From Oscillospiraceae bacterium (lineage in GTDB: Bacteria; Bacillota; Clostridia; Oscillospirales; CAG-272), in NCBI GenBank assembly GCA_015064155.1, contig SVST01000012.1, positions 1 through 64,000 on the forward strand: a stretch of 64,000 nucleotides of DNA, read 5' to 3'. The position numbers were made by a program, and so were the translations under genes. The notes under the pieces are model-generated. The model was not told the origin of the DNA, did not search any database, and worked only from the letters and a program-made list of their open reading frames with translations. This document shows, piece by piece, positions 4,452 to 60,109 of this stretch. Every line of letters starts with the position of its first letter. Positions within the stretch are counted from its first letter, which is position 1.

Positions 4452-4471
4452 CTGCTCTCCCCTTTCCGTAA

Positions 4472-4774: not shown

Positions 4775-4784
4775 AAATAAACAA

Positions 4785-4823
4785 GGACACATCACCAAGG
4801 CGAAAGCCCAAAATGATGTGTCC
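4785..4823. terminator. Palindromic repeat, copy 2 (bidirectional terminator)
   Basis: Same perfect stem as at 2875 (GGACACATCA 4785-4794, TGATGTGTCC 4814-4823) and a loop of equal length; in this copy the loop can form a small GGC-GAAA-GCC hairpin. It follows the remnant stop and faces the end of the GGGtGRT gene. AACTTTTTATT follows. Confidence 0.75.
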
Positions 4824-4912
4824 AACTTTTTATTGTTCAATTTTGTGCGATTTGATTTTGACAAAGCCTCAATGAAGCCCTGCAAATCTCAAAAAGCCTT
4901 ATGCCGCAAGGA

Positions 4913-5911: not shown

Positions 5912-5930
5912 GTATCTGTTCCTCCTTTGA

Positions 5931-6647: not shown

Positions 6648-6721
6648 GATTTCTATCTCCTTTTTTCTTGATTCACTTTTATATGGAACGCTTTGAGAAA
6701 GCGTACGAAACCGATATGCGA

Positions 6722-7297
6722 TCAGAGGATGATCTCACCGTAAACCTCACCGAATGCGCCTGCTGCATTGCATTCATCGGTGTCGATGTGCATTGCAAGT
6801 GCGAAATTGGGGTGTACGCGGCAAACGACGTCATCAAAAATCGTGGTGCGCTCGCTCTCGATCTTTACCTTAACGATCTGCTTGTCCTCAATGCCGAATG
6901 CCTCTGCATCAGCGGGGGTCATGTGGATGTGTCTTTTTGCGATGATTGCACCTGCGTCGATTTCGATTTCACCTACGGGGCCGACCATCTTCAAGCCGGG
7001 GGTGTTTTCAACGTCACCACTCTCGCGAACGGGAACATTCTTCAGACCCAGTACACGGGCATCGGTGTAGGAAAGTTCTACCTGATTTGCTTTACGCGTG
7101 GGACCAAGTACGCTTACTGCAAGGGTACCCTTGGGGCCTACCAAAGTGATCTTATCGTTTGCGGTAGCAAACTGACCGGGCTGGCTGAGCATCTTCTTTA
7201 CGATCAGCTCGGCTCCCTCTCCGTAAAGAGCCTTTACAGCATCCTCGGTCAAATGGATGTGTCTTGCGGAGGTTTCGACTAAAACTTTGTTTGCCAT
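6722..7297 (-). CDS. pduL: Phosphate propanoyltransferase PduL
   Basis: A 191-residue PduL-type phosphotransacylase, which interconverts acyl-CoA and acyl-phosphate. The two zinc-binding histidine motifs are present: ARHIHL (His13, His15) and AKRHIHM (His123, His125). I took the ATG at 7297 (MANKVLVETSARHIHL), with AGAAAGG upstream; a longer reading to 7363 would begin upstream of the likely transcript start. No N-terminal encapsulation helix like those that target PduL to bacterial microcompartments is seen, and no shell genes are nearby, so this is probably a housekeeping phosphotransacetylase for acetate formation. Operon head of the PduL, scaffold, GGGtGRT set. Confidence 0.92.
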   Translation of the reverse strand: MANKVLVETSARHIHLTEDAVKALYGEGAELIVKKMLSQPGQFATANDKITLVGPKGTLAVSVLGPTRKANQVELSYTDARVLGLKNVPVRESGDVENTPGLKMVGPVGEIEIDAGAIIAKRHIHMTPADAEAFGIEDKQIVKVKIESERTTIFDDVVCRVHPNFALAMHIDTDECNAAGAFGEVYGEIIL

Positions 7298-7366
7298 GAT
7301 TGTAAACCTTTCTTTTATGTGAATATTTTTTTGACGGTTGCGGGGGATAAAATCCCATTCCATATT

Positions 7367-7395
7367 ATTATACCATTTTTTTTATCGGTTGTAAA
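7367..7395 (-). promoter_or_regulatory. Sigma-A promoter for pduL operon
   Basis: On the minus strand TTTACA (7390-7395) and TATAAT (7367-7372) are 17 bases apart, about 70 bases before the pduL ATG. Confidence 0.7.
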
Positions 7396-7513
7396 GACTG
7401 TTTTTTCAAAATTGTTGCGGCATAAACGAATTTTTTTTGGTAATAATGATAAAGAACGGGGATTTTGGGGTATCTTGCAGCGAGTTTAACGAGAAGCAAA
7501 GGATGGTATCGGA

Positions 7514-8260
7514 ATGGACGAGAAGAAGTCGAACGGCACGGAAGAGAACGAAAAGGCGCGCGAAGAAGCACGCAAGATTCTGTTGGAAAATATTGCCGAG
7601 GGCGGAGGCAGCGTTGCAGAAAATGCGCGGGAACGCTTTCACTGTATTTCCATCATCGGGCAGATTGAGGGGCACTATCTTTTGCCCGAGGGACAGAAGG
7701 CAACCAAGTACGAGCAGCTTTTGCCCCTTTTGGTCGAGCTGGAGGAGGATGATTCGGTTGAGGGCATTCTTTTGCTTTTGAATACGATGGGAGGCGACGT
7801 GGAGGCGGGACTTGCTCTGGCGGAACTGATCGCATCGATGACCAAGCCAACCGTATCTCTCGTTTTGGGGGGCGGACATTCGATCGGTGTCCCGCTTGCG
7901 GCATCGGCGGATCGATCACTGATCGTCCCCAGCGCGACTATGACCCTGCATCCCGTCCGGATCAGCGGCATGGTGATCGGGGTTCCGCAATCGTTTCGGT
8001 ATATGACCGAGATGCAAAAGCGGATCGTTGCCTTTATCTGCGCGCACTCCAAGGCACGGGCGGACGACCTGAATCGACTGATGCTTCGCCCCGATCAGAT
8101 TGCTACCGATTGCGGCACCATCCTGGAGGGGAAGGAAGCGGTGGAATACGGGATTATCGACGAGGTGGGCGGCTTGGACCGTGCGTTGGAAATTTTACGG
8201 GAGCTTTCGAACAATATCAAAACGCATCATTCATTGACCAAAAACGAAAATAAGAATTAG
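7514..8260 (+). CDS. ClpP/TepA-like serine protease
   Basis: A 248-residue cytoplasmic protein of the ClpP-crotonase fold, closest in type to the TepA-like group. Key pieces: LLLNTMGGDVEAGLALAE, the oxyanion and hinge region; GGGHSIGVPLAAS with the likely nucleophile Ser123; and TMTLHPVR with His146. The first 40 residues are charged and probably extend outside the core. There is no transmembrane segment. A weak AAAGGAT lies about ten bases before the ATG at 7514. The gene stands alone: pduL is divergent on the left and a terminator follows on the right. Substrate unknown; a role in protein quality control or secretion is only a family-level guess. Confidence 0.82.
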   Translation: MDEKKSNGTEENEKAREEARKILLENIAEGGGSVAENARERFHCISIIGQIEGHYLLPEGQKATKYEQLLPLLVELEEDDSVEGILLLLNTMGGDVEAGLALAELIASMTKPTVSLVLGGGHSIGVPLAASADRSLIVPSATMTLHPVRISGMVIGVPQSFRYMTEMQKRIVAFICAHSKARADDLNRLMLRPDQIATDCGTILEGKEAVEYGIIDEVGGLDRALEILRELSNNIKTHHSLTKNENKN

Positions 8261-8275
8261 TCTTATTATAAAAAC

Positions 8276-8300
8276 GGCGAATTTTTTTCGCCATTTTTTG
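8276..8300 (+). terminator. Intrinsic terminator
   Basis: GGCGAA (8276-8281), five T, TTCGCC (8287-8292), then ATTTTTTG. It follows the ClpP-like gene by 15 bases. Confidence 0.75.
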
Positions 8301-8361
8301 TTTTTGCTCGGAAAAGTTATCGGCTTGCGTGGAAAAAGCCGCAAAAAAGTGTAAAAAACTC

Positions 8362-8390
8362 TTGCACGGAAGTATATAATATGATATAAT
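8362..8390 (+). promoter_or_regulatory. Sigma-A promoter of the exonuclease-thiI-aspS run
   Basis: TTGCAC (8362-8367), 17 bases, TATAAT (8385-8390). The leader to the start at 8523 is about 125 bases; I see no clear riboswitch in it. Confidence 0.7.
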
Positions 8391-8522
8391 ATATTGGTAT
8401 GTGCTTTTTCCGATTTGACGGGAAAAAGCACCAAATTGTAAACCGTCATACGGAAACCGGCATCCGCTGCAAGCTCTCGCAGGCGTGTATGCAACAGGTC
8501 CGAACGGTAGGAAGGAAAAACT

Positions 8523-9605
8523 TTGAAACAAACCATGAAACTGCGCTCGGGCGCAACCATTCCCCATCTGTCGCTCTGTGAGGCAGAGCAAAAGCATTAT
8601 CTGACGAGAAACGTTCTCAACAAAATGCACCTGATGCCTGCGGGCGACCCGATTGCATACGACGAAAATGCAGACGGAAGCATCACCTATTTCTTTGACC
8701 CCTCTCACGTAGTCGAGGCACCGCCCGAGCTTTGGTATGCTCCCGCGCAAAAGACCGAAACCCGCACCCTGGAAAGCGGCAGAGAGGTGGTTCGAATGAG
8801 CACCAAGCGCGCGGCTGCTTGCGGATATTACACCAAGGAACGCTTGGACCAGATGAACTACGACGTGATTGAGGAGCCGGTTGCCTATACGCTCCGCAAC
8901 GACAAGAGTGTCATTTACTTTTACGACAAAAAGACCGCTGTTCGCCGTCCCCTGATGTGCGTTGCGTGCGGAAAGGAAATTCGGTACCGTCGCAAGCTGT
9001 GTCGGGCTTGCTTTGATGCGGATCTTGCGGTGCGCCGCGCCGAGGGGGACGAGCATCGAAGTGCTTTCTATCACATGAAGCGTGAGCGCGTGCTGTTCTT
9101 TGATTTGGAGCTGACCGGTGTTTACACGCACGACGAGATTCTGTCGGTTTCGATCGTGGACGGTACGGGACGGGTGATTATGGACACGCTCGTCAAGCCC
9201 GCGCACAAGAAAAAGTGGAAGCAGACCGAGAAAATTCACGGAATCACGCCCGATATGGTACAGGATGCACCGAGCCTTGACGATATTACCGACCGCATCA
9301 AGGAGCTGTTTGACAACGCCGATATTTTGATTGCATACGGCATCTCCACCGACTACAGTCACATCAAATACATCTATGATACCGAGGAGGAGCGCGAGGC
9401 GTTGCATAAAAAGGCGCGTTGTGCGGCAACCGAGTTCGTGCGCTTCCAATCCGAGCACTATCCCGATCTCGTACACGCATCGCTCAGTGATGCGATGGAA
9501 CGCTTGGAGATCGAATGGGACGGCGTTGCGCATACGTCGATTGCCGATACCATCGGTTGCGCCAAGGTTTGGGAAAAGCTCTTCCCGCATTACTACGACA
9601 ACTGA
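8523..9605 (+). CDS. DEDDh 3'-5' exonuclease with N-terminal zinc-ribbon region
   Basis: A 360-residue protein. Residues ~185-355 are a DnaQ/RNase T-like exonuclease: FFDLELTG gives the D-x-E pair (Asp194, Glu196), ILIAYGISTDY the middle Asp, and HTSIADTIGCAKVW the final H-x4-D. In front of it is a cysteine quartet (146, 149, 160, 163; CVACG and CRAC) that should bind zinc, and before that ~130 residues I do not recognise. The TTG at 8523 fits better than the ATG at 8535, because AGGAAGG lies seven bases before the TTG and nineteen before the ATG. It heads a run of genes for tRNA, rRNA and translation, so an RNA-trimming role is plausible; a DNA role cannot be excluded. Confidence 0.82.
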   Translation: MKQTMKLRSGATIPHLSLCEAEQKHYLTRNVLNKMHLMPAGDPIAYDENADGSITYFFDPSHVVEAPPELWYAPAQKTETRTLESGREVVRMSTKRAAACGYYTKERLDQMNYDVIEEPVAYTLRNDKSVIYFYDKKTAVRRPLMCVACGKEIRYRRKLCRACFDADLAVRRAEGDEHRSAFYHMKRERVLFFDLELTGVYTHDEILSVSIVDGTGRVIMDTLVKPAHKKKWKQTEKIHGITPDMVQDAPSLDDITDRIKELFDNADILIAYGISTDYSHIKYIYDTEEEREALHKKARCAATEFVRFQSEHYPDLVHASLSDAMERLEIEWDGVAHTSIADTIGCAKVWEKLFPHYYDN

Positions 9606-9619
9606 GGAGGGAACGAAAA

Positions 9620-9937
9620 ATGGATTTTCTGTTTGGTTTTAACAAGCCTACCCCACAAGATGAGTTCACGTCGATTTTGACGACGGTGCACGACCCGATT
9701 GAGTTGAGCATCGTTCGGAGCATCTTGGACGGTGAGAAAATTCCTTACCGTGTGTGTGAACGCGGAAGCGGTGGGATGGTAAAGGTGATTGCGGGATACT
9801 CCACGTTCGGAACCGACATTATGGTACCTGCCGAGACACTGGCAATGGCACAGGAGCTGTTGGATGCTTATCGCAACGGGGACGTGGTAGAGGATGAGCT
9901 CCTCGAAGCCGACGGTGAGGACGGAGAGGAAGCATGA
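9620..9937 (+). CDS. DUF2007 family small protein
   Basis: A 105-residue acidic protein with the DUF2007 (putative signal-transducing) pattern: a ferredoxin-like fold with IELSIVRSILDGEKIPY and a later MVPAETLAMAQELLD helix. Its last 20 residues are almost all Asp and Glu. GAGGAGGG precedes the ATG at 9620. It sits 14 bases after the exonuclease and overlaps thiI by four bases (ATGA), so it is translationally coupled to thiI. In other bacteria DUF2007 proteins are often tied to PII-like or regulatory roles; nothing here fixes the function. Confidence 0.78.
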   Translation: MDFLFGFNKPTPQDEFTSILTTVHDPIELSIVRSILDGEKIPYRVCERGSGGMVKVIAGYSTFGTDIMVPAETLAMAQELLDAYRNGDVVEDELLEADGEDGEEA

Positions 9938-11112
9938 AAGAAATCTTACTTTGTAAATACGGAGAAATCGTCCTGAAGGGCGCGAACCGACGCTATTTTG
10001 AGGATGCTTTGTGCAAGACCCTGCGGTTTCGTGCCAAGCATTACGGAAATTTTACGATCACGCGTTCTCAAAGCACGCTGACCATTGAGCCGATTGACGA
10101 ATTTGCCGATATCGACGGTATGTTTGAGAGTGCCTCCAAGGTGTTTGGTATCGTTGGCATCAGCCGTTGTGCCGTTTGCCAAAAGGATATGGCGGCAATT
10201 GAGGAAACGGTGAGAGCCTATATTCCGCAGTTTTTGGAGGGAAAGAAGAGCTTTAAGGTCGAGGCAAAGCGTTCTGACAAGCGTTTCCCCTTGGGTTCGA
10301 TGCAAATTTGTGCGGAAGTGGGCGGATATATTCTGTCCGAGATGCCGCAGCTGCGCGTGGACGTGCACAATCCCGAAATCGTGGTACACGTGGAGATCCG
10401 CGAATTCTTTGCTTACGTGCATGCGGGGCAATTTAAGGGTGCGGGCGGTATGCCCGTAGGCACCAACGGAAAGGCACTGCTGCTTTTGTCGGGCGGAATT
10501 GATTCCCCCGTGGCGGGCTACATGATCGCAAAGCGAGGGGTGTTGCTGGAGGCGGTTCATTTTGAGTCCTTCCCATACACCAGTGAGCGCGCAAGAGAAA
10601 AGGTGTTTGAACTCGCGCGCGAGGTTGCGCAGTACGCGGGCTCGTTTAACGTCCACGTGGTGTCACTTACGCATATTCAGGAGGAGCTCGTCAAGCATTG
10701 TGAGGAGGATTACTTCACGCTTCTGTTGCGTCGCTACATGATGGCAATAGCCGACCGTTTGGCGCATAAGCTCGGATGCGGCGGCTTGATTACGGGCGAA
10801 AGTCTTGGTCAGGTGGCATCGCAGACCATGCAGGCAATCGGTGTGACCGACCCGTTGGCAACGCTTCCCGTGTTCCGTCCTTGCATCGGTATGGACAAGG
10901 AGGAAATCATTCGGGTGGCGCGCAGCATCGGCACCTTCGAAACCTCGATCCAGCCATTTGAGGATTGCTGTACCGTGTTTACCCCCAAGCATCCGCGCAC
11001 GCGTCCCGAGCTTGCCAAGGTGATTGCCGAGGAGCAAAAGCTTGACTTTGAGGCACTGGTGGAAGAGGCGTTGAACGGGGCTTACGTGGAGCGCATCAGA
11101 ACCGAATTTTGA
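9934..11112 (+). CDS. thiI: tRNA 4-thiouridine synthase ThiI
   Basis: A 392-residue ThiI, which adenylates uridine 8 of tRNA and transfers sulfur from a cysteine desulfurase to make 4-thiouridine; it can also feed thiazole synthesis. Visible parts: N-terminal ferredoxin-like and THUMP domains (residues 1-165), the PP-loop SGGIDS at about 186-191, and EDCCTVFTPKHP with the catalytic cysteine near residue 348. The C-terminal rhodanese domain of the E. coli enzyme is absent, as in Gram-positive forms. The start overlaps the DUF2007 stop. The sulfur donor could be the NifS-type desulfurase at 42037-43212. Confidence 0.95.
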   Translation: MKEILLCKYGEIVLKGANRRYFEDALCKTLRFRAKHYGNFTITRSQSTLTIEPIDEFADIDGMFESASKVFGIVGISRCAVCQKDMAAIEETVRAYIPQFLEGKKSFKVEAKRSDKRFPLGSMQICAEVGGYILSEMPQLRVDVHNPEIVVHVEIREFFAYVHAGQFKGAGGMPVGTNGKALLLLSGGIDSPVAGYMIAKRGVLLEAVHFESFPYTSERAREKVFELAREVAQYAGSFNVHVVSLTHIQEELVKHCEEDYFTLLLRRYMMAIADRLAHKLGCGGLITGESLGQVASQTMQAIGVTDPLATLPVFRPCIGMDKEEIIRVARSIGTFETSIQPFEDCCTVFTPKHPRTRPELAKVIAEEQKLDFEALVEEALNGAYVERIRTEF

Positions 11113-33653: not shown

Positions 33654-33677
33654 CGAATACAAGAATAGCAAATAAAA

Positions 33678-33707
33678 AAGGCACGAAACCGCGCGGTTTC
33701 GTGCCTT
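33678..33707. terminator. Perfect-palindrome bidirectional terminator
   Basis: AAGGCACGAAACCGC followed directly by its exact complement (33693-33707), A-rich before and TTGCTTT after. It ends the YdjI/G/H-like operon and the converging GtrA-GH35 gene. Confidence 0.85.
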
Positions 33708-33715
33708 GCTTTGTA

Positions 33716-35989
33716 TCAAACGATCACGTCGGGCGTTTCGTCCTCCTGCATCTTGTCCAGAACGTGGTGATCCAGAATTCGGACCATTGGATTTTGTACG
33801 GGTTCTTCGTCAAAAACCAAAATTTCGTTTTCGTCCTTCAGAATGGGGTAGGGCAGGTAGAGCGAATATTGCGGACCGATATTCCAGTAGCGTCCGAGAT
33901 TGAAGCCGTTGACTACGATAAAGCCCTTGGTAAAGCCGTCGGGATGGATAAAGCAATCCTTCTTCTCGGGGGCGCGGAAGCTTCCGCGATAGAACGTGGG
34001 AAGATTCGGCTTTTCGTTTTCGATGCTTTTCAGCTTGTCAAGACTGTCCATCGGGAGCGTCCAGATCTCCCAATCGGTTAAGAATTGACGGCAGGACGCG
34101 TGTACGTAAACGTAATCAAGGATGCCCTTGCGGTCGCCCAGCAACACCTCAACACCGAAATTGATACGTCCGAGATTTTCCACCAACAGATCCAGCGTGC
34201 CGCCATCGGTCAGCCAATCGGCGCATTCGATGTACTGCTTTTCATCGTTGCGGTGAATGGTTCCACGATACACACCGTTGAAGTAAACGTGCATACGGTC
34301 AGCCATTTTTCCAAAGACCAAATACTTGGGGTCAATGATTCCTTCGATCTTTTTGCGGTAGAGGATATATCCAAGGCTTTGTCCGAAATGCTCCATGGAA
34401 TAAAGCTGGTTGGACTGGTGGTGCGTGCCGATGTTGTCAAGATTTGCAAACAGACCGCCGGCGGGGGTCAGCTTGACGTCCCCGATATTTTGGACGGGGA
34501 CGGGTGCGGGGCGGGGCAGGTTTTTGCCCAAATGACGCTCCATAACCTTTTGGATTGCAAAATACTTGGGGGTACATTCGCCCCACTCGGTCAAGGGCGC
34601 GTCGTAATCATAGCTGGTGGTGTCGGCAAAGTAGGTGACCTTACGCGGATTGATCGGATCCTTGTAGAAGGCGTTTGCACCGTTATAGAATGCGTAGTTG
34701 GTGCCGCCGTGGAACATGTACATATTGAAGGATGCGTCAAGCTCTAAGTGACGCTCCACCTCGTGTGCAACGATATCCCCGTCGTATTTTCGGAAAGGCT
34801 CGCCCCACTGCGTAAAGTTGCCGACCCAGTGCTCCACACACATACGGGGCGCGTCGGGCATATAGCTGTCGAGCGCATCGTATTCGTAGGTGATTCCCTT
34901 GTGAAATCCGAAATCCAAGCAACACAGACGGTTGCCCGCGTGTCCTCCGTTGAGGAACATCTGACGGTGTCCGTCTGCGGTAAAGATCGGCACGTCGATG
35001 CCGCGATCTTCCAAAAGGCGCGCGCACCATTCCATGTAGGCATGGTCGTTTCCGAAGGAGCCGTACTCGTTTTCTGCGGCTACCATCAAAACGTTTCCAC
35101 CGTTGGTGATCAGGTGCGGCACAAGGTGCGGCAGAAGCTGATCCATGTAAGCGGTTAAGGGCTCGGTATAGGCGGGATCCATCGTGCGCAGGCGGATATC
35201 GGGGTTGGCAAGCAACCATCCGGGGAAGCCGCCAAACTCCCACTCAGCGCATACAAAGGGACCCGGGCGTACGATTGCGTAAAGACCCAGCTCCTGTGCG
35301 GTGGAAAGGAAACGCTCCAGATCCAAGCGACCCGAAAAATCGTATTCACCGGGATGCTTTTCGTGCAGGTTCCATGCGCAGTAGGTTTCCACCGTGTTGA
35401 AGCCTACGTCCTTGATCTTTTGTAAAAGCGCGGGCCATTGCTCGGGGAGCGAGCGGAAATAATGGACCGATCCGCTGTAAATGCGGAAAGGCTTTCCATC
35501 CAAGTAAAATTCACGGTTTTTCCAGGTAAAACGGGAAGCATCGTCTTTTTTTGTATTTTTGCGGAAAACAAACAGCTTACTGAAAATGTAGTTGAGAATA
35601 ATGACCAGCACTGCGGCAACCAGCTTGACGAGATATTCGTTCACCGACAAAATGTCGAAGAAGACAAGGAAGATCCCTTCTTGCAAGAGGAAGGTCAGCA
35701 CACGGCTGCCCGCAAAGCTACCGATTTCACCGAGGATGGGTAAGAATCCTCGGCGTGTACTGCGGAATACCCAAATGCGGTTGGTAACGTAAGCAAAAGC
35801 AACCGCTGCCACCCAGGCAATGAGATTGGCAATGTGAATGAGATAAACTGTTTCTTTGATTGCATCGCCCCAGAAATGGTAGAGCAGAAAGCTGACTGCC
35901 CAGTCCACAACTGTGGTCAGACCACCGAAGATCAGATACAAAAGCTGCTCACGGTAGGTAGACATTAAGTCCTTGATTTTTTTGATCAT
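33716..35989 (-). CDS. GtrA-like membrane domain fused to GH35 beta-galactosidase
   Basis: One uninterrupted 757-codon frame. Residues 1 to ~145 are a complete GtrA-family domain with four membrane helices (LLYLIFGGLTTVVDWAVSFL ... LNYIFSKLFVFRKN, the usual GtrA ending). From ~150 a full GH35 follows: FYLDGKPFRIYSGSVHYFR, the acid/base Glu308 in AAENEYGSFG, and the nucleophile Glu386 in VEHWVGNF, with beta-sandwich domains to the end. The stand-alone paralogue at 40208-42016 starts where the fusion joins (KNREFYLDG vs KDRSFYLDG), so GtrA seems to have been joined onto an intact GH35. With four helices both ends should be cytoplasmic. AAAGGAT precedes the ATG. The cysS gene lies 29 bases upstream on the same strand. 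Confidence 0.88.
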   Translation of the reverse strand: MIKKIKDLMSTYREQLLYLIFGGLTTVVDWAVSFLLYHFWGDAIKETVYLIHIANLIAWVAAVAFAYVTNRIWVFRSTRRGFLPILGEIGSFAGSRVLTFLLQEGIFLVFFDILSVNEYLVKLVAAVLVIILNYIFSKLFVFRKNTKKDDASRFTWKNREFYLDGKPFRIYSGSVHYFRSLPEQWPALLQKIKDVGFNTVETYCAWNLHEKHPGEYDFSGRLDLERFLSTAQELGLYAIVRPGPFVCAEWEFGGFPGWLLANPDIRLRTMDPAYTEPLTAYMDQLLPHLVPHLITNGGNVLMVAAENEYGSFGNDHAYMEWCARLLEDRGIDVPIFTADGHRQMFLNGGHAGNRLCCLDFGFHKGITYEYDALDSYMPDAPRMCVEHWVGNFTQWGEPFRKYDGDIVAHEVERHLELDASFNMYMFHGGTNYAFYNGANAFYKDPINPRKVTYFADTTSYDYDAPLTEWGECTPKYFAIQKVMERHLGKNLPRPAPVPVQNIGDVKLTPAGGLFANLDNIGTHHQSNQLYSMEHFGQSLGYILYRKKIEGIIDPKYLVFGKMADRMHVYFNGVYRGTIHRNDEKQYIECADWLTDGGTLDLLVENLGRINFGVEVLLGDRKGILDYVYVHASCRQFLTDWEIWTLPMDSLDKLKSIENEKPNLPTFYRGSFRAPEKKDCFIHPDGFTKGFIVVNGFNLGRYWNIGPQYSLYLPYPILKDENEILVFDEEPVQNPMVRILDHHVLDKMQEDETPDVIV

Positions 35990-36018: not shown

Positions 36019-37449
36019 TTACCCGATTTGATAGGTGGTGCCGTCCTTGGTGTCGATCAAGGTGACACCCTTTGCGAGAAGCTCGGCACGGATGCGGTCT
36101 GCCTCTGCATAGTTTTTCGCTTTCTTGGCAGCGGCTCTTTGTGCGATCATGTCTTCGATCTCACGGATCACGGGATCATCGGACACGGGCTTCTGTGCTT
36201 CGGCTTCTTTTTCCCGATTGAGCGCATCTGCCTTTTCCAACAGATCAAGGCAGAGCACACGATCAAAGTCGGCAAGAAGCGCGCGCTTGGTTGCTCCGTT
36301 GGTGTCTGCCTTGAGCACGTCGTAAACGGCGGTGACGGCAAGCGAGGTGTTCAGGTCGTTGTCAAGTGCCTTGGCAAAATTCGCTTTTTGCGCGTCAAAC
36401 GCGGCCCCATCGATTTCGCCGTCCTTTTCCAGTGCCGCAACACGTGCCACCAGCTTGTTGTATGCCACCTTTGCGTTGTCCATGTTCTCGTAGGAGAACA
36501 CCAAGGATTTACGGTAGTGTGATTGCAGGCAGAAGAAGCGGTAGACCATCGGGTCGTAGCCTTTCGACTTCAGCAACGAAAGGGTGAGAAATTCGCCCTT
36601 GGACTTGCTCATCTTTCCCGAATTCGTATTCAGATGCAGAACGTGTACCCACCAGTTGCACCATTTGTGACCGAGATATGCCTCGGACTGTGCAATCTCA
36701 TTGGTGTGGTGGGGGAATGCGTTGTCGATACCGCCGCAATGGATATCAAGCTTATCGCCCAAATGCTTCATGCTGATGCAGGAGCATTCGATGTGCCAAC
36801 CGGGGTAGCCAACCCCCCAAGGGCTTTCCCATTTCAATTCTTGATCGTCGAATTTGGATTTGGTAAACCAAAGCACAAAATCGGCTTTGTTGCGCTTGTT
36901 GCCGTCTTCCTCTACGCCCTCGCGTACGCCAACGGCAAGATCCTCCTCCTCAAAGTTGTGGAAAACGTAGTATTGCTTCAATTTAGAGGTATCAAAATAA
37001 ATATTTCCGCCTGCCTCATACGCATAGCCCTTTTCCAACAGAGAGGAAATGACCTTGATAAACTCGTCGATACAGCCCGTTGCGGGTTCTACGATTTCGG
37101 GACGGCGGATGTGGAGTGCTTCGCAATCCTCAAAAAACTTGTCGGTGTAGAACTGCGCGATTTCCATCACGGTTTTTTTCTCGCGCTTGGCACCCTTGAG
37201 CATCTTATCCTCACCCGTATCGGCATCGGAGGTCAGGTGACCCACGTCGGTGATATTCATCACGCGCGTGACCTCGTAGCCCGCGTAGCGCAGATAACGG
37301 TCAAGCACGTCCTCCATGATATAGGTGCGCAGGTTTCCGATGTGTGCGAAATGGTATACGGTAGGTCCGCAGGTGTACATGCTGACCTTTCCCGCTTCAT
37401 TGGGTATAAATTCGTCTTTGGTTTTGGTTACGGAGTTATAAAGCTGCAT
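36019..37449 (-). CDS. cysS: Cysteinyl-tRNA synthetase
   Basis: A 476-residue class I synthetase. The HIGH-type motif is FAHIGNLRTYIMEDVLDRYL, KMSKS is HLNTNSGKMSKSKGEFL, and the zinc ligands include the Cys in YTCGPTVY and GWHIECSCISM with HHTNEIAQSEA. The C-terminal helical part ends KAKNYAEADRIRAELLAKGV, the usual CysRS tail. AAGGGG stands before the ATG at 37449, which lies 17 bases after the flavin reductase-like stop, so the three genes 38069 to 33716 may be one transcript from the promoter at 38113-38142. Confidence 0.96.
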   Translation of the reverse strand: MQLYNSVTKTKDEFIPNEAGKVSMYTCGPTVYHFAHIGNLRTYIMEDVLDRYLRYAGYEVTRVMNITDVGHLTSDADTGEDKMLKGAKREKKTVMEIAQFYTDKFFEDCEALHIRRPEIVEPATGCIDEFIKVISSLLEKGYAYEAGGNIYFDTSKLKQYYVFHNFEEEDLAVGVREGVEEDGNKRNKADFVLWFTKSKFDDQELKWESPWGVGYPGWHIECSCISMKHLGDKLDIHCGGIDNAFPHHTNEIAQSEAYLGHKWCNWWVHVLHLNTNSGKMSKSKGEFLTLSLLKSKGYDPMVYRFFCLQSHYRKSLVFSYENMDNAKVAYNKLVARVAALEKDGEIDGAAFDAQKANFAKALDNDLNTSLAVTAVYDVLKADTNGATKRALLADFDRVLCLDLLEKADALNREKEAEAQKPVSDDPVIREIEDMIAQRAAAKKAKNYAEADRIRAELLAKGVTLIDTKDGTTYQIG

Positions 37450-37466: not shown

Positions 37467-38069
37467 TTATTTTACAGATTTTGATTTGTCCGGTACGCGT
37501 GGCTTTTTCTTCTTTTTTGCCACCGAGAAGCCGAAGTGTCCCAGCCGTTTTCCGAGCTCGTAGTAGTCACCGTGTGCGTATGCTACGAGCTCGGCCTTTT
37601 CCAAATGAAGCTTGCCCGTATCATCCACCAGCGTTTCGTTGACGTCAACCGCTACGATATCGGCAAGAAACATATCGTGTGAGCCGAGAGCCACCACGTC
37701 GGTGACACGGCATTCCAATACCACGGGGCTATCCGAAAGGATTGGACAGTCGATCTCTTTTGCTGATTCATACGAGAGATTGCACTTGGCAAACTTGTCG
37801 TTTTTGGCACCCGTACAAACGCCGCACCAATCGGCGGCACGCACCAAGTCCCTGTTCGTGAGGTTGATGGCAAAGACACCGCTTTTTTTGATGATCTCAT
37901 AAGAATATCGCGAGGGACGTACCGAAATATAGGTTTTGGGAGGATCGGAGTTGATGATCCCTGTCCAGGCAACCGTTAATACGTTCTTTCTCTCTCCATC
38001 CGCGCAGGTGACCAGCACGGGCGGTACGGGAGCTAAAAGCGTTCCGCCTCGCCATTTGATTTTTTCCAT
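37467..38069 (-). CDS. Flavin reductase-like split-barrel protein
   Basis: A 200-residue FMN-binding split barrel of the flavin-reductase-like group. Seen: NVLTVAWTGIINSDPPKTYISV with the flavin phosphate contacts, FAINLTNRDLVRAADWCG, and CRVTDVVALGSHDMFLADIVAV. The C-terminus is basic (KKKKKPRVPDKSKS). I placed the start at the ATG at 38069, with AAAGGAG just before; a longer reading to 38102 has no site. It may reduce flavins with NAD(P)H or act as a flavin-binding redox protein. It is next to, but on a separate transcript from, the flavodoxin-like gene. Confidence 0.87.
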   Translation of the reverse strand: MEKIKWRGGTLLAPVPPVLVTCADGERKNVLTVAWTGIINSDPPKTYISVRPSRYSYEIIKKSGVFAINLTNRDLVRAADWCGVCTGAKNDKFAKCNLSYESAKEIDCPILSDSPVVLECRVTDVVALGSHDMFLADIVAVDVNETLVDDTGKLHLEKAELVAYAHGDYYELGKRLGHFGFSVAKKKKKPRVPDKSKSVK

Positions 38070-38112
38070 GCCGTTCTCCTTTCCGCTTCGGCTGTTTATC
38101 AAGACTCCGTAT

Positions 38113-40207: not shown

Positions 40208-42016
40208 TTATTGCTCGTTTCGATTTAACTCGTGGGTGTCGAGGATGCGAAGGGCGGGCGCGTTCGTTGGTTCCTCGTCAAATATCACGATCTCGTTTTC
40301 TTCCTTTAAGAGTGCTCCCGGCAGATACAGAGAAAACTGAGGACCGATCTTCCAATAGCGTCCCAAATTGAACCCGTTGACGGTGATAAAGCCCTTGCTA
40401 AAGCCGTCGGGGTGGATGAAGCAATCCGTTTGTTCGGCAGCATGGAAATATCCACGGTAAAAGGCGGGGAGATCGTTTCCGTCGTCGGCGGTGCTTGCAA
40501 GACGCTCAAGATTTTCCATGGGAAGCGTCCAAATTTCCCAATCGGTTAAGAATTGACGGCAGGATGCACTGACGTAAACGTAATCTAAAATTCCCTTGCG
40601 GTCCCCCAAAAGAAGCTCGGGGAGTGAGCGCAACCGTCCCATGTTTTCCACCAAGAGATCCAGCGTGCCGCCCTCGGTCAGCCAATCGGCGCATTCGACG
40701 TACTGCTTTTCGTCGTTTCGGCTGATCGTTGCGCGGTGAATGCCGTTGAAATAGACGTGCATACGGTCGTGTACCGTGCCGAAAATCAAATGCTTCGGGT
40801 CGATGATTCCTTCGATTTTTTTGCGGTACAGAATATAGCCGTAATCCTGTCCGAAATGCTCCATGGAAGAAAGCTGATTGGAACGGTAACGGGTGCCGAT
40901 GCGATCGAGATTTTCAAACAGACCGCCCACCCGTTCAAGACGGACGTCCCCAATGCTTTGGACGGGAACCGGCTGCGGACGGGGAAGCTGTTTTCCAAGA
41001 TGCCGTTCCATCACGCGCTGTATCGCAAAATATTTCGGGGTACATTCGCCCCATTCGGTCAAAGGGGCACCGTAATCGTAGCTGGTGGTTTCGGGGTAAT
41101 AGGTGGTTTTTCGGGGATCGTTCGGGTGATCGTGAAAGCTGATTGCGCCGTTATAAAACCCGAAATTGGTGCCGCCGTGGAACATATACATGTTGAAGCT
41201 TGCCCCCAGTGCGAGGTTTTGCTCCACCTCCCGTGCTACGATTTCTGCATCGTAAGGCTTTTGCGGAATTCCCCAGCGGTCGAAATTTCCGATCCAATGC
41301 TCCATATTCATGCGGGGAGCATCGGGCTGAACTGCCTCCAGTGCCGCGTAGAATTGCTCGGTGATTTCCCCTTTCAGTCCAAAGTCAAGACAGCACAGAC
41401 GGTTGCCCGCGTGTCCTCCCGAGAGAAACATCCGACGGCTTCCGTCCGACGTGAACACGGGGACGTCGATGCCGCGTTCCTCTAAGATACGCGCGCTCCA
41501 TTCCATGTAGTCGTGGTCGCTTCCAAAGGAGCCGTACTCGTTTTCCGCCGCAACCATCAGCACGTTTCCGCCGTGCGTGATCTGGTGCTTGGCAATACGC
41601 GGAGCCAATTCGTCCATATAGCGTTCGATTGCCGCGCACAAGGTAGGGTCGGTGGTACGGAATCGGATGCTTTCATCGGCAAGCAGCCACGCGGGGAACC
41701 CGCCGAACTCCCATTCCGCGCAAATATAAGGACCGGGACGCACGATGGCATAAAGCCCCAGCTCGTCTGCAATCGACAGAAAGCGTTCCAGATCCAAACG
41801 ACCCGAAAAATCGAACTCGCCTTTTTGCCTTTCGTGCAGATTCCACGCACAGTAGGTTTCCACGGTGTTGAAGCCTGCGTCCTTGAGCTTTTGCAGCAGC
41901 TCTCTCCATTTCTCGGGAAAGCTGCGGAAATAGTGGATGGCTCCGCTATAAATGCGAAACGGCTGTCCATCCAAATAAAAGGACCGATCCTTCCAATAAA
42001 AACGGGGTTCTTTCAT
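40208..42016 (-). CDS. GH35 beta-galactosidase
   Basis: A 602-residue family 35 glycoside hydrolase that should release beta-linked galactose from oligosaccharides. Acid/base Glu160 lies in AAENEYGSFG and the nucleophile near residue 239 in MEHWIGNFDRWG. There is no signal peptide, so it works on imported sugars. It closely resembles the GH35 half of the fusion at 33716-35989 over its whole length, so the two arose by duplication. I took the ATG at 42016, with AAAGGAG upstream; the frame is open further to 42217 only because of overlap with the desulfurase gene. The desulfurase ends 20 bases upstream on the same strand. Confidence 0.93.
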   Translation of the reverse strand: MKEPRFYWKDRSFYLDGQPFRIYSGAIHYFRSFPEKWRELLQKLKDAGFNTVETYCAWNLHERQKGEFDFSGRLDLERFLSIADELGLYAIVRPGPYICAEWEFGGFPAWLLADESIRFRTTDPTLCAAIERYMDELAPRIAKHQITHGGNVLMVAAENEYGSFGSDHDYMEWSARILEERGIDVPVFTSDGSRRMFLSGGHAGNRLCCLDFGLKGEITEQFYAALEAVQPDAPRMNMEHWIGNFDRWGIPQKPYDAEIVAREVEQNLALGASFNMYMFHGGTNFGFYNGAISFHDHPNDPRKTTYYPETTSYDYGAPLTEWGECTPKYFAIQRVMERHLGKQLPRPQPVPVQSIGDVRLERVGGLFENLDRIGTRYRSNQLSSMEHFGQDYGYILYRKKIEGIIDPKHLIFGTVHDRMHVYFNGIHRATISRNDEKQYVECADWLTEGGTLDLLVENMGRLRSLPELLLGDRKGILDYVYVSASCRQFLTDWEIWTLPMENLERLASTADDGNDLPAFYRGYFHAAEQTDCFIHPDGFSKGFITVNGFNLGRYWKIGPQFSLYLPGALLKEENEIVIFDEEPTNAPALRILDTHELNRNEQ

Positions 42017-53453: not shown

Positions 53454-54902
53454 TTACTCCATCTCGATCTCAAATGCGGCAACAGCGGCTGCGGGAAGCA
53501 CGGGGGTGCCTTCCACTTCTACGCTCTTGACGTTGAATACGTTGGGATTGAGATAGGTGATGTGGGTCATGGGGTCCTTTGCAACGTAGTGCATGGTGAT
53601 CTTCTTGATCTTTTCCTTGCCCAGGTCGAGATTCAACTCCACTTCGTTGTTCATGTCGGTATTTACCGCGTGAACGTAGACGGTCTTGCCGGTTCTGCTT
53701 GCGGTTGCGTCCACGATACCGGTGGAGGTCAAATCAAGAGCCTTTTCGCCGACGTGCTTGCGGAACAAGCTCATAACTCTTCCGACCGGCTGGAGGTAAG
53801 AGGGCTTGGAGGTGATCGAAACGGGGGTGCTGAGCATAATGGCGTTTACCTGCCATACGTTGCCCATGAAGTCTGCCATGGTTGCGATGTCAAGAATATC
53901 CGAGTTGCGCTCGATGACGTTCAAGCAACGCGCATAGGAAACACCTGCCGCCCAAGTGGAGAGCACGGTGTTACGGCTTTGACCGGGAACGACGAAGTGT
54001 CCTTCGGTCATTGCCAAACGCTTGCCGTTGGCATCCTCACGCATTTTTGCAATGTGATCCTCCATGGAACGGTGCGCGTTCATCAAGTGACGCCAGGTGT
54101 TCTTGGGGCTGATGCGGTAGTTGTCGGCATACAGAGGAGAATAGTCAAGACCCGAGCCGAAGTGATGGTGGAATGCGATGGTATCGATCTCGTCGATCTG
54201 CCCCATCTTTGCGCACCACGTGTCGTCCGCGCCCTTGTAGGATTCGTCACCCCAGCCGAGCAGGCGAATCGAGGGGTCAACCTTGCGCATTGCCTTGGCA
54301 AACTTTTCGGTAACCTTTGCGCATTGATCCGAGGAAAAACCGCTTGCATCGTAGGAGGTTTCGTTACCGATCTGCCAGAACTTGACGTTATAGGGATCCT
54401 CGTATCCGTGCGATTTACGCAGCTTATTATCGGGGTTGTTACAGTAGTCCACCCATTCAGCTGCCTCTTCCGCGGTTCCGCAACGGTCGATTCCGGGCTT
54501 CGGATGTGCCCAACGCTCGCGTCCGTCGGATTCCATGTTGACCACGATCAGCGGCTCGGCATTGACCTGACGGCAAAAATCGACGACCTCATGCGTGCCG
54601 ACGTGGTTGCTGTACAAGCCGTCCCAGCAGTAGTTGACCATCGGAATACGCTTTTCCATCGGACCGACGGCTTCCTTCCAATGATAATAGGAAGCAAAGC
54701 AACCGCCAAAACGGATCATCGTGGGTGCAAGGTCGTCGCGTACCAGGTCGATTACCTTGGGGATCCATCTTTCGTTTGCATAGTCCCAAGCGGCGTCCAC
54801 CGAGGTGTCGCAGGTTCCGAGAGGCTCCATAAATTGCATATAGATGTAAGGGGAAATACTGTGCTTTTCCTTGACGTTGATTTTCAGATTTATTTTTTGC
54901 AT
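53454..54902 (-). CDS. GH51-type alpha-L-arabinofuranosidase
   Basis: A 482-residue glycoside hydrolase of the GH51 type, with no signal peptide, so it trims imported arabinose-containing oligosaccharides. TIM barrel: RFGGCFASYYHWKEAVGP; acid/base Glu181 in FWQIGNETSYDASG; HHHFGSG; nucleophile Glu300 in LAMTEGHF. The C-terminal beta domain ends LPAAAVAAFEIE. Family boundaries with related clan-A enzymes are not tight, so arabinofuranosidase is likely, not certain. AAAGGAT precedes the ATG. An AraC gene is divergent 174 bases away and probably controls it. Confidence 0.85.
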   Translation of the reverse strand: MQKINLKINVKEKHSISPYIYMQFMEPLGTCDTSVDAAWDYANERWIPKVIDLVRDDLAPTMIRFGGCFASYYHWKEAVGPMEKRIPMVNYCWDGLYSNHVGTHEVVDFCRQVNAEPLIVVNMESDGRERWAHPKPGIDRCGTAEEAAEWVDYCNNPDNKLRKSHGYEDPYNVKFWQIGNETSYDASGFSSDQCAKVTEKFAKAMRKVDPSIRLLGWGDESYKGADDTWCAKMGQIDEIDTIAFHHHFGSGLDYSPLYADNYRISPKNTWRHLMNAHRSMEDHIAKMREDANGKRLAMTEGHFVVPGQSRNTVLSTWAAGVSYARCLNVIERNSDILDIATMADFMGNVWQVNAIMLSTPVSITSKPSYLQPVGRVMSLFRKHVGEKALDLTSTGIVDATASRTGKTVYVHAVNTDMNNEVELNLDLGKEKIKKITMHYVAKDPMTHITYLNPNVFNVKSVEVEGTPVLPAAAVAAFEIEME

Positions 54903-55970: not shown

Positions 55971-57587
55971 TTACTTTTTCTTCGGCAGTCGATGCTTGAT
56001 CGCCGTGCGTACGGTATTGTAGTGGTTGGTCAGCAGGGTATCGATTCCCATATCGAGGAATTTGTTGGCTTCCCCGGGCTTGTTTGTCCAAAAGACGTTA
56101 CAGCGGATTCCGTGCGCGTGCGCCTTGTCGATCATTTCCTGATTGAAATAGGGCTTGTAAAGCTGTACCTTTTGGGCTCCCAATTCAATGGCTCTGTCTA
56201 CGATTTCATAGGGACGCGCACCCAAATGCCCTACGCAAACCGGGATATCGGGTGCGTATGCTTTGAATTGGCGGATATGCTCGTCGGGCTCCAGCATGAA
56301 ATAGACGTGGCGCGCACAATCGTATTTGCGGATGAGTGCAACGATCTTTTTCATACTCTCTTCGGGATAGGGCTCGGTCAGTGAAAGCGGCTTGACGTGG
56401 ATATTCATGATGGTTTGTCCGGCGAATTTTTGCAAAATATCCTCAAAGCGGACGATGGGAAGCTCGCTGTAATCTTCGCTGAATTTCGAGCCGAAATCCA
56501 ATGCCTCCAGCTCGGCAAGGGTATGCTCATAGATCTTTCCCGTACCGTTCGACACGCGGTCGAGGGTGCTGTCATGTGACGACACAATCTCTCCGTCGGC
56601 GGTTGGCCAAAGGTCGAATTCGATCTCCTCGGCTCCCATTGCGATTGCCGCGCCAAAGGCGGGCATGCTGTTTTCGGGCGCAATCTTATTGTATCCGCGG
56701 TGCGAGCAAAGACGGGGATAGGGCATACGGTCCTCAAAGGGGACGATCGCAGGGCCTCCCACGCGGTATTGCCACGGCTTTCTGCCGTATTCGATGTACC
56801 GGTAGTGCGCGGCATCGGGATTTCCGTAGCCCGCAGGTTTGAAATATTTATCGTGCGGATCAAATTCGGCGCAAGCCATGCCAAAACGCCCTTTCATGTT
56901 TTCCAGCACGGTTCCGCGCGGATCGACGATCATCGATGCACCGCAAACGTCGGAGTCTTCTCCGAAGCTGACCGACGAGCGCACCACGTAGGCGTTGGTG
57001 TTATATGCTAAGAATCTGCACATGATTTCAATTGCCGAATGCGTATCACTGCGTTGGAGCGAGCAACCGATGATGATATCCACGTTTTCGCGCGCGATGT
57101 TGGCAAATGCTTCGTAGAAATAGAAATCGTAGCAGGTCAGGAATGCGTAGCGCAAGCCTTCAACCTCCAAAACATAGGGGAAGGACGGCTCAAACGTATA
57201 GTCTTTGTCTAAATTCAGCACGTCGATTTCAAGCGGCGGCAGATGCTTTTTGAAATATTTGCCCAAGAGAGAGCCGTCGCGACCGTAGACGTAGGTGGTG
57301 TTTCGGTAGCCGCCCTCTTCCAAGGAGAGCGCATTGACACAAACGATCGCATTGCATCTTTTGGCGGTTTTGACGCACGCATCCAACAGTACCGTAATAT
57401 ACGTATCGTGATAGTAGAGTGTTTCCTCAAGGGTAGAGGTTGCGCAGGGGACGTCACTGTATTCGGGCAATACGATCAGATCCATGCTTTCGTCGCACTG
57501 CTCCAATAGGGACATTTTATATTGAAAAAACTCTTCGGATTTTGAAACGTCGCGAGAATACGGAGGCTGAAAAATACAAGCTTTCAT
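55971..57587 (-). CDS. Carbon-nitrogen hydrolase fused to glycerophosphodiester phosphodiesterase
   Basis: One 538-residue frame with two enzymes. Residues 1 to ~275: nitrilase superfamily with the Glu-Lys-Cys triad Glu42 (LIVLPEYSD), Lys113/114 (GKYFKKHLPP) and Cys152 (FLTCYDFYFYE). Residues ~290-538: GDPD-type TIM barrel with SHRGYNKIAPENS (His296, Arg297, Glu305), EIEFDLWPTADG (Glu323, Asp325) and His338, ending VFWTNKPGEANKFLDMGID. No signal peptide or membrane segment. An intracellular enzyme cutting amide or nitrile bonds in one half and phosphodiesters in the other is predicted; a phospholipid head-group or teichoic-acid breakdown product could suit both. AAAGGAG precedes the ATG at 57587. 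It has its own promoter. Confidence 0.87.
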   Translation of the reverse strand: MKACIFQPPYSRDVSKSEEFFQYKMSLLEQCDESMDLIVLPEYSDVPCATSTLEETLYYHDTYITVLLDACVKTAKRCNAIVCVNALSLEEGGYRNTTYVYGRDGSLLGKYFKKHLPPLEIDVLNLDKDYTFEPSFPYVLEVEGLRYAFLTCYDFYFYEAFANIARENVDIIIGCSLQRSDTHSAIEIMCRFLAYNTNAYVVRSSVSFGEDSDVCGASMIVDPRGTVLENMKGRFGMACAEFDPHDKYFKPAGYGNPDAAHYRYIEYGRKPWQYRVGGPAIVPFEDRMPYPRLCSHRGYNKIAPENSMPAFGAAIAMGAEEIEFDLWPTADGEIVSSHDSTLDRVSNGTGKIYEHTLAELEALDFGSKFSEDYSELPIVRFEDILQKFAGQTIMNIHVKPLSLTEPYPEESMKKIVALIRKYDCARHVYFMLEPDEHIRQFKAYAPDIPVCVGHLGARPYEIVDRAIELGAQKVQLYKPYFNQEMIDKAHAHGIRCNVFWTNKPGEANKFLDMGIDTLLTNHYNTVRTAIKHRLPKKK

Positions 57588-57620
57588 CGGGATTTTTCTC
57601 CTTTTTGGGAATTTTTCTTG

Positions 57621-57649
57621 ATTATAACACAAAAGTTGCGCTTTGTCAA
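57621..57649 (-). promoter_or_regulatory. Consensus promoter of the nitrilase-GDPD gene
   Basis: On the minus strand TTGACA (57644-57649), 17 bases, TATAAT (57621-57626), both exact. Confidence 0.8.
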
Positions 57650-57690
57650 TTTGGAATACGCAAAAATCCCCGTCGGTCGTCAAACAAAAC

Positions 57691-57728
57691 GAATCACCGT
57701 GCTCTTTTTGCAGATTGCACGGTGATTC
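57691..57728 (-). terminator. Terminator of the GH20 gene
   Basis: GAATCACCGTGC (57691-57702) pairs with GCACGGTGATTC (57717-57728); on the minus strand GTTTTGTTTG follows. Confidence 0.8.
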
Positions 57729-57745
57729 TAAAATAAGAACAATTC

Positions 57746-60109
57746 TTATTCTTTGTTTTCTCCTGCGATTCCAACCAAAATCAAGCCGCAGATGTCCTCC
57801 TCGGCGGGACGGTAGGCAATGGAGGCAATGCTTTTTTCGGGATGTGGGTTTTGCCATACGTAGCCCGTGACGCACAAGGGTTCACCGTTTGCCGAGTGTC
57901 CCTGATAAACGGGGTCGGAAAACCACGTTCCCGTATATCCTGTGTGACGGTAATATTTTTGCGGCATGGGTTCTCCATAGCGGCGGTTGTAGCAGAGGAT
58001 CTGCTGACCGTAGCGAATGGGGGCATTTTCCTCGCTGCCGTCCTCATAGCGGATGCGGTACGTCCCGATTTGGATCGGCTGCTTCCATGCGTCAATCGGT
58101 GCGCTCCACGCGGTGGCATGCAGGAAGACCAATCGGTCGTATCTCGCATTTGCCGTCACCTCGCCGTCGCGCCACAGCATTGCCTGCGGGCAAAGCGCGG
58201 AAAGAGGCGCAAAGGGCTTGTTTTCGGGAGAGGTTGGCAGGGGGAGAAGCGCGGAGGAATAGCCGTTGGGAGCATGGTCGCCGCGCAGCTCGTCGCGCAA
58301 AAGCGGCTGCACGTAGCTTGCAATGACCTCTGTATAGGCGGTGCGGTTGTCCTCTTCATAGTCCTCGGCATTCCAAAGCATTTGGGAAAGATACATCATA
58401 TCCCACCATTTGCCCTTTGTTGCGGGGGTTTCTTCGTCGGTACGCAGCCAAAGCGAAATCTGACCGCCAAGCATCCCATCCCGAGCGATGCGCTTGCGAT
58501 ATCTGGGATAATGCGAGGAATACAGGTTTCCAACCGCCAGCTGATAGCCAAAGGGCAGTAGCTCTTCCTCGATATCCTCCTCGGGGCGGAAATACCAAAC
58601 GAAGTCCATCATCAAAATGTCACGGGGCAAACGCTCGCGCGCCTTTGGGACGTAGTATTTTCTGGCCGGGTCTGCGTGCGGCATATCCGACCAGATCATC
58701 ATTTTCAGTCCTTTTTTCTTCAAATGCTCATACATTGCAGTGACGTGCTCGCAGTAGAGATCCTCGGGGCGTTTGGTTTGGCAACGCTTGCATCGACCGA
58801 TATGATAGATTTCGTCGTGTCCCATGTGAACGTAACGCGCAGGTTTTACCACCTCCACGATCTCATCGATGATATCGTAGATCAGATCGTAGGATGCCTG
58901 CAGGGAGGGACAGTAGCAGTGCGGATAGAAGCCGACGGGCTTGGTGTCGTCCGCGCGGGTATCGACCTCTCCATCGGGTGTTTCGATGCGTTCGGCAAGC
59001 TCGGGATGCGCGTAGGTAATATATTGAACGTGTCCAAGACTCTGTATTTCGGGAACGACCTCAATGCCCAATTGGCGCGCAGAGTCCAAAAGCGAGGAAA
59101 CCTCCTTCTTTTCCAAAACGGTGCCATTCGCAACCATGTCGGAGTGTGGCATTTTCGGTTGCAGTCCGGCATTTGCGTTTGCTTCGGCGCGAAGCCATGC
59201 CTCGCTGATCTCGGGGTGCTTGTCAAAGCGCATACCGCCGGCGAACTCAACGATCAGCATATTGTAACGCAACGGGATCATCAAATAGCGGAACAGACGC
59301 TTGGTGAATTCAAAGTCCTCGCGCGCGGGAAGTCCGATGTGCAAGCCGCGGATTTCCTTGGAGGGTTGGTCATCAACCGATACACGCGGAAGCCCTGCAC
59401 GATCGGAAAGCTGTAAGAGCGTATCGGCACCGTACAGCAGGGCAAGACGCGAAGCCGCTGTGACCACAACGGTGTTGTCGGTGGTTTCCACGGTGTAACG
59501 CTCGTTCAGAAAGGCATCGCTCGTATCCTTGACGAACACAATGCGAAGTCCGCCGTCGCGGGGGGACACGCCGTGACGCTCGTTCAGACGCTCTCTCAGA
59601 AAGCTTGCCGCAAAGACCTCGTCGGGATCGGACGATGCCGACGTGATTTCTCCGATGGGGTCGGTATCGCCGAGCAGGGTCAGCCGTTTCGGCTGTGGCC
59701 ATACGAAGGGCTTGCCGTCGTCGTGCGTACCGAAAACCGAGAGGCTTTCCAGCGTGATCGATTCCAGATCGGCATACAGCCGCACGGTCAAGTCTTGCGC
59801 TATCGCGCCGATCGGGACCGTGATCTTTCCGCCGATTCGCTTGTCGGTTTCCGCGCAGTAAACACCAACGGGCTTGCCGTCACTCAAAACCTCGACCTTT
59901 TTCAGCGTGCTTCTCTCGGCAAACGACAGAACCACCGAACCGACTAAGGAAAGATGCTCCAAGGACACCCGAATATCCAAAGCCGTGTCGAAAACGTCGT
60001 CCCAGTTCCATCGATAACCCCCGTTTTCCGTGACCGAGGGAGGGAGAGGACGGCTGCTGTCGGCATGCGTAAAGGCAATGCTTTTTTGGTGCAAAAGACC
60101 GATATACAT
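57746..60109 (-). CDS. GH20 beta-N-acetylhexosaminidase
   Basis: A 787-residue family 20 glycoside hydrolase. After ~165 residues of beta-sandwich it has the GH20b accessory domain (EVFAASFLRERLNERHG ... RLALLYGADTLLQLS) and the TIM barrel with the catalytic pair Asp432-Glu433 in HMGHDEIYHIG, followed by MMIWSDMPHAD and a long C-terminal part. No signal peptide, so it removes terminal GlcNAc or GalNAc from imported glycans or recycled wall material. AAAGGAG lies 13 bases before the ATG at 60109, a slightly long spacing. It has its own promoter and terminator. Confidence 0.92.
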   Translation of the reverse strand: MYIGLLHQKSIAFTHADSSRPLPPSVTENGGYRWNWDDVFDTALDIRVSLEHLSLVGSVVLSFAERSTLKKVEVLSDGKPVGVYCAETDKRIGGKITVPIGAIAQDLTVRLYADLESITLESLSVFGTHDDGKPFVWPQPKRLTLLGDTDPIGEITSASSDPDEVFAASFLRERLNERHGVSPRDGGLRIVFVKDTSDAFLNERYTVETTDNTVVVTAASRLALLYGADTLLQLSDRAGLPRVSVDDQPSKEIRGLHIGLPAREDFEFTKRLFRYLMIPLRYNMLIVEFAGGMRFDKHPEISEAWLRAEANANAGLQPKMPHSDMVANGTVLEKKEVSSLLDSARQLGIEVVPEIQSLGHVQYITYAHPELAERIETPDGEVDTRADDTKPVGFYPHCYCPSLQASYDLIYDIIDEIVEVVKPARYVHMGHDEIYHIGRCKRCQTKRPEDLYCEHVTAMYEHLKKKGLKMMIWSDMPHADPARKYYVPKARERLPRDILMMDFVWYFRPEEDIEEELLPFGYQLAVGNLYSSHYPRYRKRIARDGMLGGQISLWLRTDEETPATKGKWWDMMYLSQMLWNAEDYEEDNRTAYTEVIASYVQPLLRDELRGDHAPNGYSSALLPLPTSPENKPFAPLSALCPQAMLWRDGEVTANARYDRLVFLHATAWSAPIDAWKQPIQIGTYRIRYEDGSEENAPIRYGQQILCYNRRYGEPMPQKYYRHTGYTGTWFSDPVYQGHSANGEPLCVTGYVWQNPHPEKSIASIAYRPAEEDICGLILVGIAGENKE

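Follow-up and report, generated by a model that had tools for sequence, protein, structure and literature searches.

A putative recent fusion of a GtrA membrane domain with a GH35 beta-galactosidase in an Oscillospiraceae species

Gene organisation and domains of the fused reading frame

The window analysed here comprises 64,000 nucleotides of contig SVST01000012.1 from an Oscillospiraceae bacterium (assembly GCA_015064155.1). On its minus strand, a GtrA membrane domain and a glycoside hydrolase of family GH35 are encoded in a single reading frame of 757 amino acids (33716-35989), which starts with ATG and has no internal stop. Its domains, its neighbours and the features of the joint are listed in Table 1.

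Table 1. Features of the fused gene and its surroundings in the window.
Feature	Position	Strand	Source
Fused ORF, GtrA and GH35, 757 amino acids	33716..35989	-	ORF list and Pfam
GtrA_DPMS_TM domain, residues 18-142	35564..35938	-	Pfam, model
Linker from last GtrA helix to first GH35 strand, residues 142-153	35531..35566	-	Model
GH35 catalytic domain, residues 160-484	34538..35512	-	Pfam
BetaGal_ABD_1, residues 531-645	34055..34399	-	Pfam
BetaGal_gal-bd, residues 664-720	33830..34000	-	Pfam
Terminator-like hairpin and T-run directly 3' of the fused ORF	33674..33705	-	Read by eye
A7 run in the linker	35546..35552	-	Run scan
Out-of-frame ATG, shifted by one base against GH35; ribosome-binding match of 0 bases	35539..35541	-	Sequence, start comparison
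cysS, conserved upstream neighbour of gtrA	36019..37449	-	Comparison with relatives
Flavin reductase, conserved neighbour of cysS	37467..38102	-	Comparison with relatives
Stand-alone GH35 paralogue (B) with own ribosome-binding site and ATG	40208..42016	-	Pfam, alignment, tree

The GtrA_DPMS_TM profile (PF04138) is matched over positions 2-117 of 117 with 70.5 bits, at a curated cut-off of 26.1. The GH35 profile is matched over positions 1-317 of 319 with 364.6 bits. The catalytic domain is above the cut-off and both further beta domains are present (residues 160-720), which places the second half in GH35. Coordinates, frame and Pfam matches thus agree with an initial sequence-only reading that had described a complete GtrA running in an unbroken frame into a complete GH35. 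That reading had also noted both catalytic glutamates. They were recovered in the stretches ENEYG (306-310) and EHW (386-388), with the second glutamate at 386, and both stretches align with the GH35 structures 4mad and 4e8c. We take E308 and E386 to be the acid/base and the nucleophile.

The AlphaFold model of the fused protein, calculated with an alignment of 46 rows, had a mean pLDDT of 80.3 and a pTM of 0.73. It shows two folded parts connected by a low-confidence linker, with residues 145-149 below a pLDDT of 50. The GH35 strands begin at residue 154. Within the GH35 barrel, the parts 206-220 and 244-269 also fell below 50.

The GtrA half

GtrA proteins normally assist the transfer of lipid-linked sugars across the membrane. 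Four GtrA helices are predicted at residues 13-46, 48-74, 82-113 and 118-141 by the model, in agreement with hydropathy and charges. Lysine and arginine residues are unevenly distributed: four in the N-terminus, one in loop 1-2, four in loop 2-3, none in loop 3-4 and five in the C-terminal tail. This charge distribution points to a location of both GtrA ends inside the cell, and hence to a cytoplasmic GH35 half. The placement of the enzyme at the inner face of the membrane, as originally proposed, is a predicted topology backed by the Pfam matches, the charge distribution and the model.

A study of Listeria GtcA names eight residues that are kept in more than 99% of GtcA homologues; conserved and mutated residues include R95, N132, K121, F74, F91 and three more (PMC7389260). 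The fused GtrA retains all eight with an offset of one: A66, N70, V74, F75, F92, R96, K122 and N133. In a comparison with two relatives, the GtrA half had a dN of 0.20-0.22 at saturated dS.

A single PF04138 match, the fused gene, was found in this draft assembly, which is 86% complete. Candidates in the same genome for a three-component system of GT-A, GtrA flippase and GT-C are this one GtrA, two YfhO-type genes and nine GT2 domain matches, which may or may not include the CsbB-like type. In Lactococcus, a single GtrA-type flippase reportedly serves the glycosylation of three polymers (PMC8035078). Should the cell depend on GtrA, and should the missing part of the genome contain no second copy, this GtrA must work with the GH35 attached. 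The fused GtrA probably still serves lipid-linked sugar glycosylation, given that four helices and the conserved residues are kept and that it is the sole GtrA found in the genome.

The two YfhO-type genes flank ruvA, followed by ruvB (G000:C28:35000-50000, 2775-10700). This is an odd neighbourhood for cell-wall glycosylation genes.

The GH35 half and its paralogue

The best solved relatives of the GH35 half are two GH35 beta-galactosidases, 4mad and 4e8c, whose alignments with the fused protein begin at residues 148 and 159, respectively. These structures presumably represent the BgaC type, GH35 beta-galactosidases that lack a signal peptide. The sequence match extends over nearly the whole GH35 part, and the domain order is the same. 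To our knowledge, BgaC-type GH35 are free enzymes; the fused protein carries four additional membrane helices at its N-terminus, and in its subfamily near-invariant columns around the active site are changed.

The stand-alone paralogue lies 4.2 kb from the fused gene on the same contig. It matches the fused frame from residue 152 on with 71% identity and has its own ribosome-binding site and ATG, which bears out the description of a close paralogue starting at the junction. Both GH35 are sister rows in the tree with a support of 100/100 and end branches of 0.23 and 0.18. The paralogue has no signal peptide and should therefore be cytoplasmic. A third GH35 of the genome, on contig C9, has 41% identity and falls in another branch. 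Among 34 other genomes of the genus, only one (G020) encodes a full-length GH35, with 42% identity, and several have partial, weaker matches. Within the genus sample, these matches place the pair of fused and stand-alone GH35 in this species alone.

Pairwise comparison of the fused GH35 with the paralogue over 597 codons (NG86) yielded a dN of 0.207 and a dS of 1.51, values that average over the time before any recent change. On these pairwise estimates, both halves are constrained on average; the fusion is not dated by this. In 43 other GH35, 101 columns show a conservation of at least 95%; the fused GH35 departs at eight of them (304, 338, 359, 391, 399, 432, 433 and 455) and the paralogue at five. 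Four departures are shared: Q to A before ENEYG, N to D, W391N near the nucleophile, and H to F or Q. The shared changes suggest another substrate preference of the sister pair. The extra changes in the fused GH35 may reflect drift, relaxed constraint or an altered specificity.

The draft nature of the assembly (29 contigs, 86% complete, a suspected metagenome bin) raises the question of a chimeric contig that combines the gtrA of one organism with the GH35 of another. This is hardly credible. Such a join would have had to hit both domain edges precisely and keep the frame, the GC3 values of the two sides are similar (0.59 and 0.66; cysS 0.65), and the sister GH35 is found nearby on the same contig.

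The window also encodes a GH20-type hexosaminidase (57746-60109, minus strand) and an alpha-L-arabinofuranosidase-like protein (53454-54902, minus strand). They fit a glycan-degrading lifestyle.

The joint between both halves

The last GtrA codons (...V F R K N T K K D D A S R F T W...) lead directly into GH35. The sister GH35 starts with ATG AAA GAA CCC CGT TTT after an AAAGGAG ribosome-binding site. At the fused boundary, the GtrA stop, the ribosome-binding site and an in-frame GH35 start are missing. Between residues 126 and 170, the only in-frame ATG, GTG or TTG codons are GTG 127, which falls in the fourth transmembrane helix, and TTG 163, which falls in the first GH35 strands. Ribosome-binding matches reach 3 bases for the former and 0 for the latter, so that no in-frame GH35 start at the joint has a match of at least 4 bases. 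Such a match was present for 17 of 22 chosen ATG genes of the window and for 56 of 300 random ATGs.

According to the sequence-only reading, the GH35 half lacks its own ATG. This holds for the frame of the fusion; an out-of-frame ATG had been overlooked. It is located at 35539-35541, in the usual start region of GH35 proteins and a few residues ahead of their first conserved positions. Just downstream of this ATG, the fusion has three C's, the sister GH35 four. By this comparison, a single base separates the fused frame from two overlapping genes, which is the strongest point against the fusion. A one-base error or a recent mutation is thus the main rival to a genuine fusion.

A one-base assembly or sequencing error, or a variant within the population, would hide a gtrA and a separate GH35 that starts from this ATG, with an overlap of a few dozen bases and probably coupled translation. 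The position of the ATG one base off, at the start of other Bacillota GH35, and the missing fourth C are in its favour, as is the fact that the fusion was not found in the other genomes searched. We consider it unlikely. The ATG has no ribosome-binding match (0 bases), whereas the best start of all 39 Bacillota GH35 rows has a motif of at least 4 bases, a count that is biased upwards by the choice of the best start. The GtrA tail, as inferred from frame 2, would have about 16 residues and be longer than in 24 of 26 relatives. A wrong-frame ATG may occur by chance within a few codons in an estimated one of ten cases. No family was split over two neighbouring frames among the 42 window ORFs scanned with Pfam, despite 50 A7/T7 runs in the window. 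These 42 ORFs were taken from 62 tiling ORFs, with mostly shorter ones left out; 37 matched at E ≤ 0.001, one below cut-offs and some partially.

The same single base could have been altered by a real, recent mutation in the strain. Two overlapping genes would have been fused and the product would be made, with a fusion that has no selected role. The absence of the fused frame from all relatives examined and the larger number of conserved-column departures in the fused GH35 than in the paralogue are consistent with such an event. Both domains are complete, however, and the pairwise dN/dS of GH35 is low, though averaged over the time before any recent mutation. We regard an unselected recent mutation as rather improbable.

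The A7 run in the linker had been suspected as the site of a sequencing error. This suspicion was not borne out: an indel in 35546-35552 shifts the GtrA frame and gives GH35 no start. As a full explanation, an error in this run was rejected, as GH35 would remain without a start. The run could also allow ribosomal or transcriptional slippage, with a short GtrA and the GtrA-GH35 fusion produced from one gene, and frame 2 does have a stop shortly after the run. This is very improbable, as an RNA structure is absent downstream of the run (z 0.14) and A7 runs exceed chance only mildly, if at all: the window has 50 A7/T7 runs against a shuffle mean of 36, and 6 of 100 shuffles reached 50. Several of them are located inside intact genes, including gyrB, cysS and the sister GH35. 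With no structure after the run and such runs being common, programmed slippage was dismissed.

Neighbourhood and occurrence in relatives

Relatives of the genus and family have a conserved gtrA neighbourhood. In 26 fetched GtrA loci, a subset of the GtrA matches in relatives, cysS is beside gtrA in 23 (exceptions L021, L027 and L058), and no GH35 match was present in the flanks of up to 1.5 kb in any of the 26. Wider stretches were compared for 15 genomes of the genus and a further one of the family (L081-L096): all 16 have cysS and gtrA, 13 a flavin reductase and none a GH35 match. A genome from another genus of the same family (G826) has the cysS-gtrA pair and encodes its GH35 on another contig. 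In 24 of the 26 loci, the GtrA frame ends no more than 10 residues from the [VI]F[RK] motif. The tails are longer by 19 residues in L032 and by about 50 in L019, neither with a GH35. From the opposite side, 50 GH35 loci (452 kb) contained no GtrA beside an unfused GH35 at E ≤ 0.001. Across the genus, a flippase-type gene is thus paired with the gene for cysteinyl-tRNA synthetase.

The whole fusion was searched in 60 relatives and in samples of 35 genus, 395 family, 394 order, 391 class and 398 phylum genomes. These sets overlap, contain one genome per species and each include the genome of the window; at most two candidates per genome were scored in the large sets, and the class, family and phylum searches were performed at E ≤ 1e-60. 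Among the matches listed for the 60 relatives and for the genus, family, order, class and phylum samples, a second stop-free GtrA-GH35 frame was not present, and recurrence in more than one species was not observed in the searched samples. This result supports the description of the layout as unusual. One match (G718) reaches far back into the GtrA part (45-727) and holds six stops. In plasmid and phage collections, the matches listed (best 10 of 99 and 8 of 8) were GH35-only or GtrA-only. A limited literature search found no published GtrA-GH35 protein; the papers that it listed deal with plants and Phytophthora.

Several candidates were rejected on inspection. An open frame of 769 amino acids with a GtrA match (G051) is extended upstream of GtrA and has no second domain after it. 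A 421-amino-acid frame (G049) overlies genes on the other strand. Part of the GH35 rows with long frames were followed further. Eight GH35 loci, fetched for long open frames or for comparison, all have an ATG immediately ahead of the GH35 part. Fifteen more with long frames or early starts (including G215, G140, G231, G1199 and G1459) were free of GtrA matches at E ≤ 0.01 over the sequence fetched.

The fusion is known from one draft assembly of 29 contigs with 86% completeness. The sequence-only reading had named a stop between the domains in relatives, or a restriction of the fusion to this assembly, as observations that would refute it. Relatives do have a stop after gtrA and the fusion was seen in this assembly only, but the relatives examined also have no GH35 at this place. 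Their stops show when the fusion arose, not that the fusion is false.

Another two-domain ORF in the window (55971-57875, minus strand) combines a carbon-nitrogen hydrolase and a glycerophosphodiester phosphodiesterase domain. Unlike GtrA-GH35, it recurs, with 50-60% identity over both domains in 13 of 34 other genomes of the genus.

Probable origin and possible role of the fusion

The best explanation of the locus, with a probability of roughly 60%, is a young, species-level fusion of gtrA and a GH35 gene. Its product would be a membrane-tethered, cytoplasmic beta-galactosidase with a GtrA that probably works. The fusion may have started with a duplicate of a cytoplasmic, BgaC-type GH35 gene that ended up immediately behind gtrA, within the conserved neighbourhood of flavin reductase, cysS and gtrA. 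Loss of the boundary, that is, of the GtrA stop, the ribosome-binding site and the GH35 start frame, would have turned both into one gene for one protein. The GtrA half probably continues to work in lipid-linked sugar glycosylation. On the cytoplasmic side, the GH35 would hang from the GtrA C-terminus by a linker of about 12 residues and would act as a beta-galactosidase at the inner membrane face. Topology and activity of both halves are inferred.

The pairing is an unusual combination of known families and no new kind of system. The GtrA half resembles Listeria GtcA in the four-helix domain, the eight conserved residues and the occurrence of a single detected copy together with YfhO-type GT-C genes. 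GtcA itself is small and stands alone, whereas the fused protein adds about 610 residues of a glycoside hydrolase.

A sugar enzyme joined to GtrA-like helices has a precedent. Dolichol-phosphate mannose synthase has C-terminal GtrA-like helices, as reflected in the Pfam family name GtrA/DPMS. In that enzyme the helices come after a glycosyltransferase, whereas in the fused protein they come before a hydrolase.

A functional coupling can be imagined in which the sole GtrA of the cell is permanently tied to a galactosidase whose substrate, at the membrane face, would be galactose that is lipid-linked or has just been flipped. The enzyme could edit or recycle C55-P-galactose, or channel released galactose into lipid-linked sugar synthesis, and so set the galactose level of the cell wall. 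We consider this improbable.

If confirmed, the protein would be a natural GtrA-family flippase with a large soluble enzyme on its C-terminus. GtrA would then tolerate such a cargo, which would be useful for topology and tagging work. The fusion would have been caught near its origin, with gtrA still separate elsewhere in the genus and a free-standing sister of the GH35 on the same contig. A possible link of galactoside breakdown with the handling of lipid-linked galactose would also come into view.
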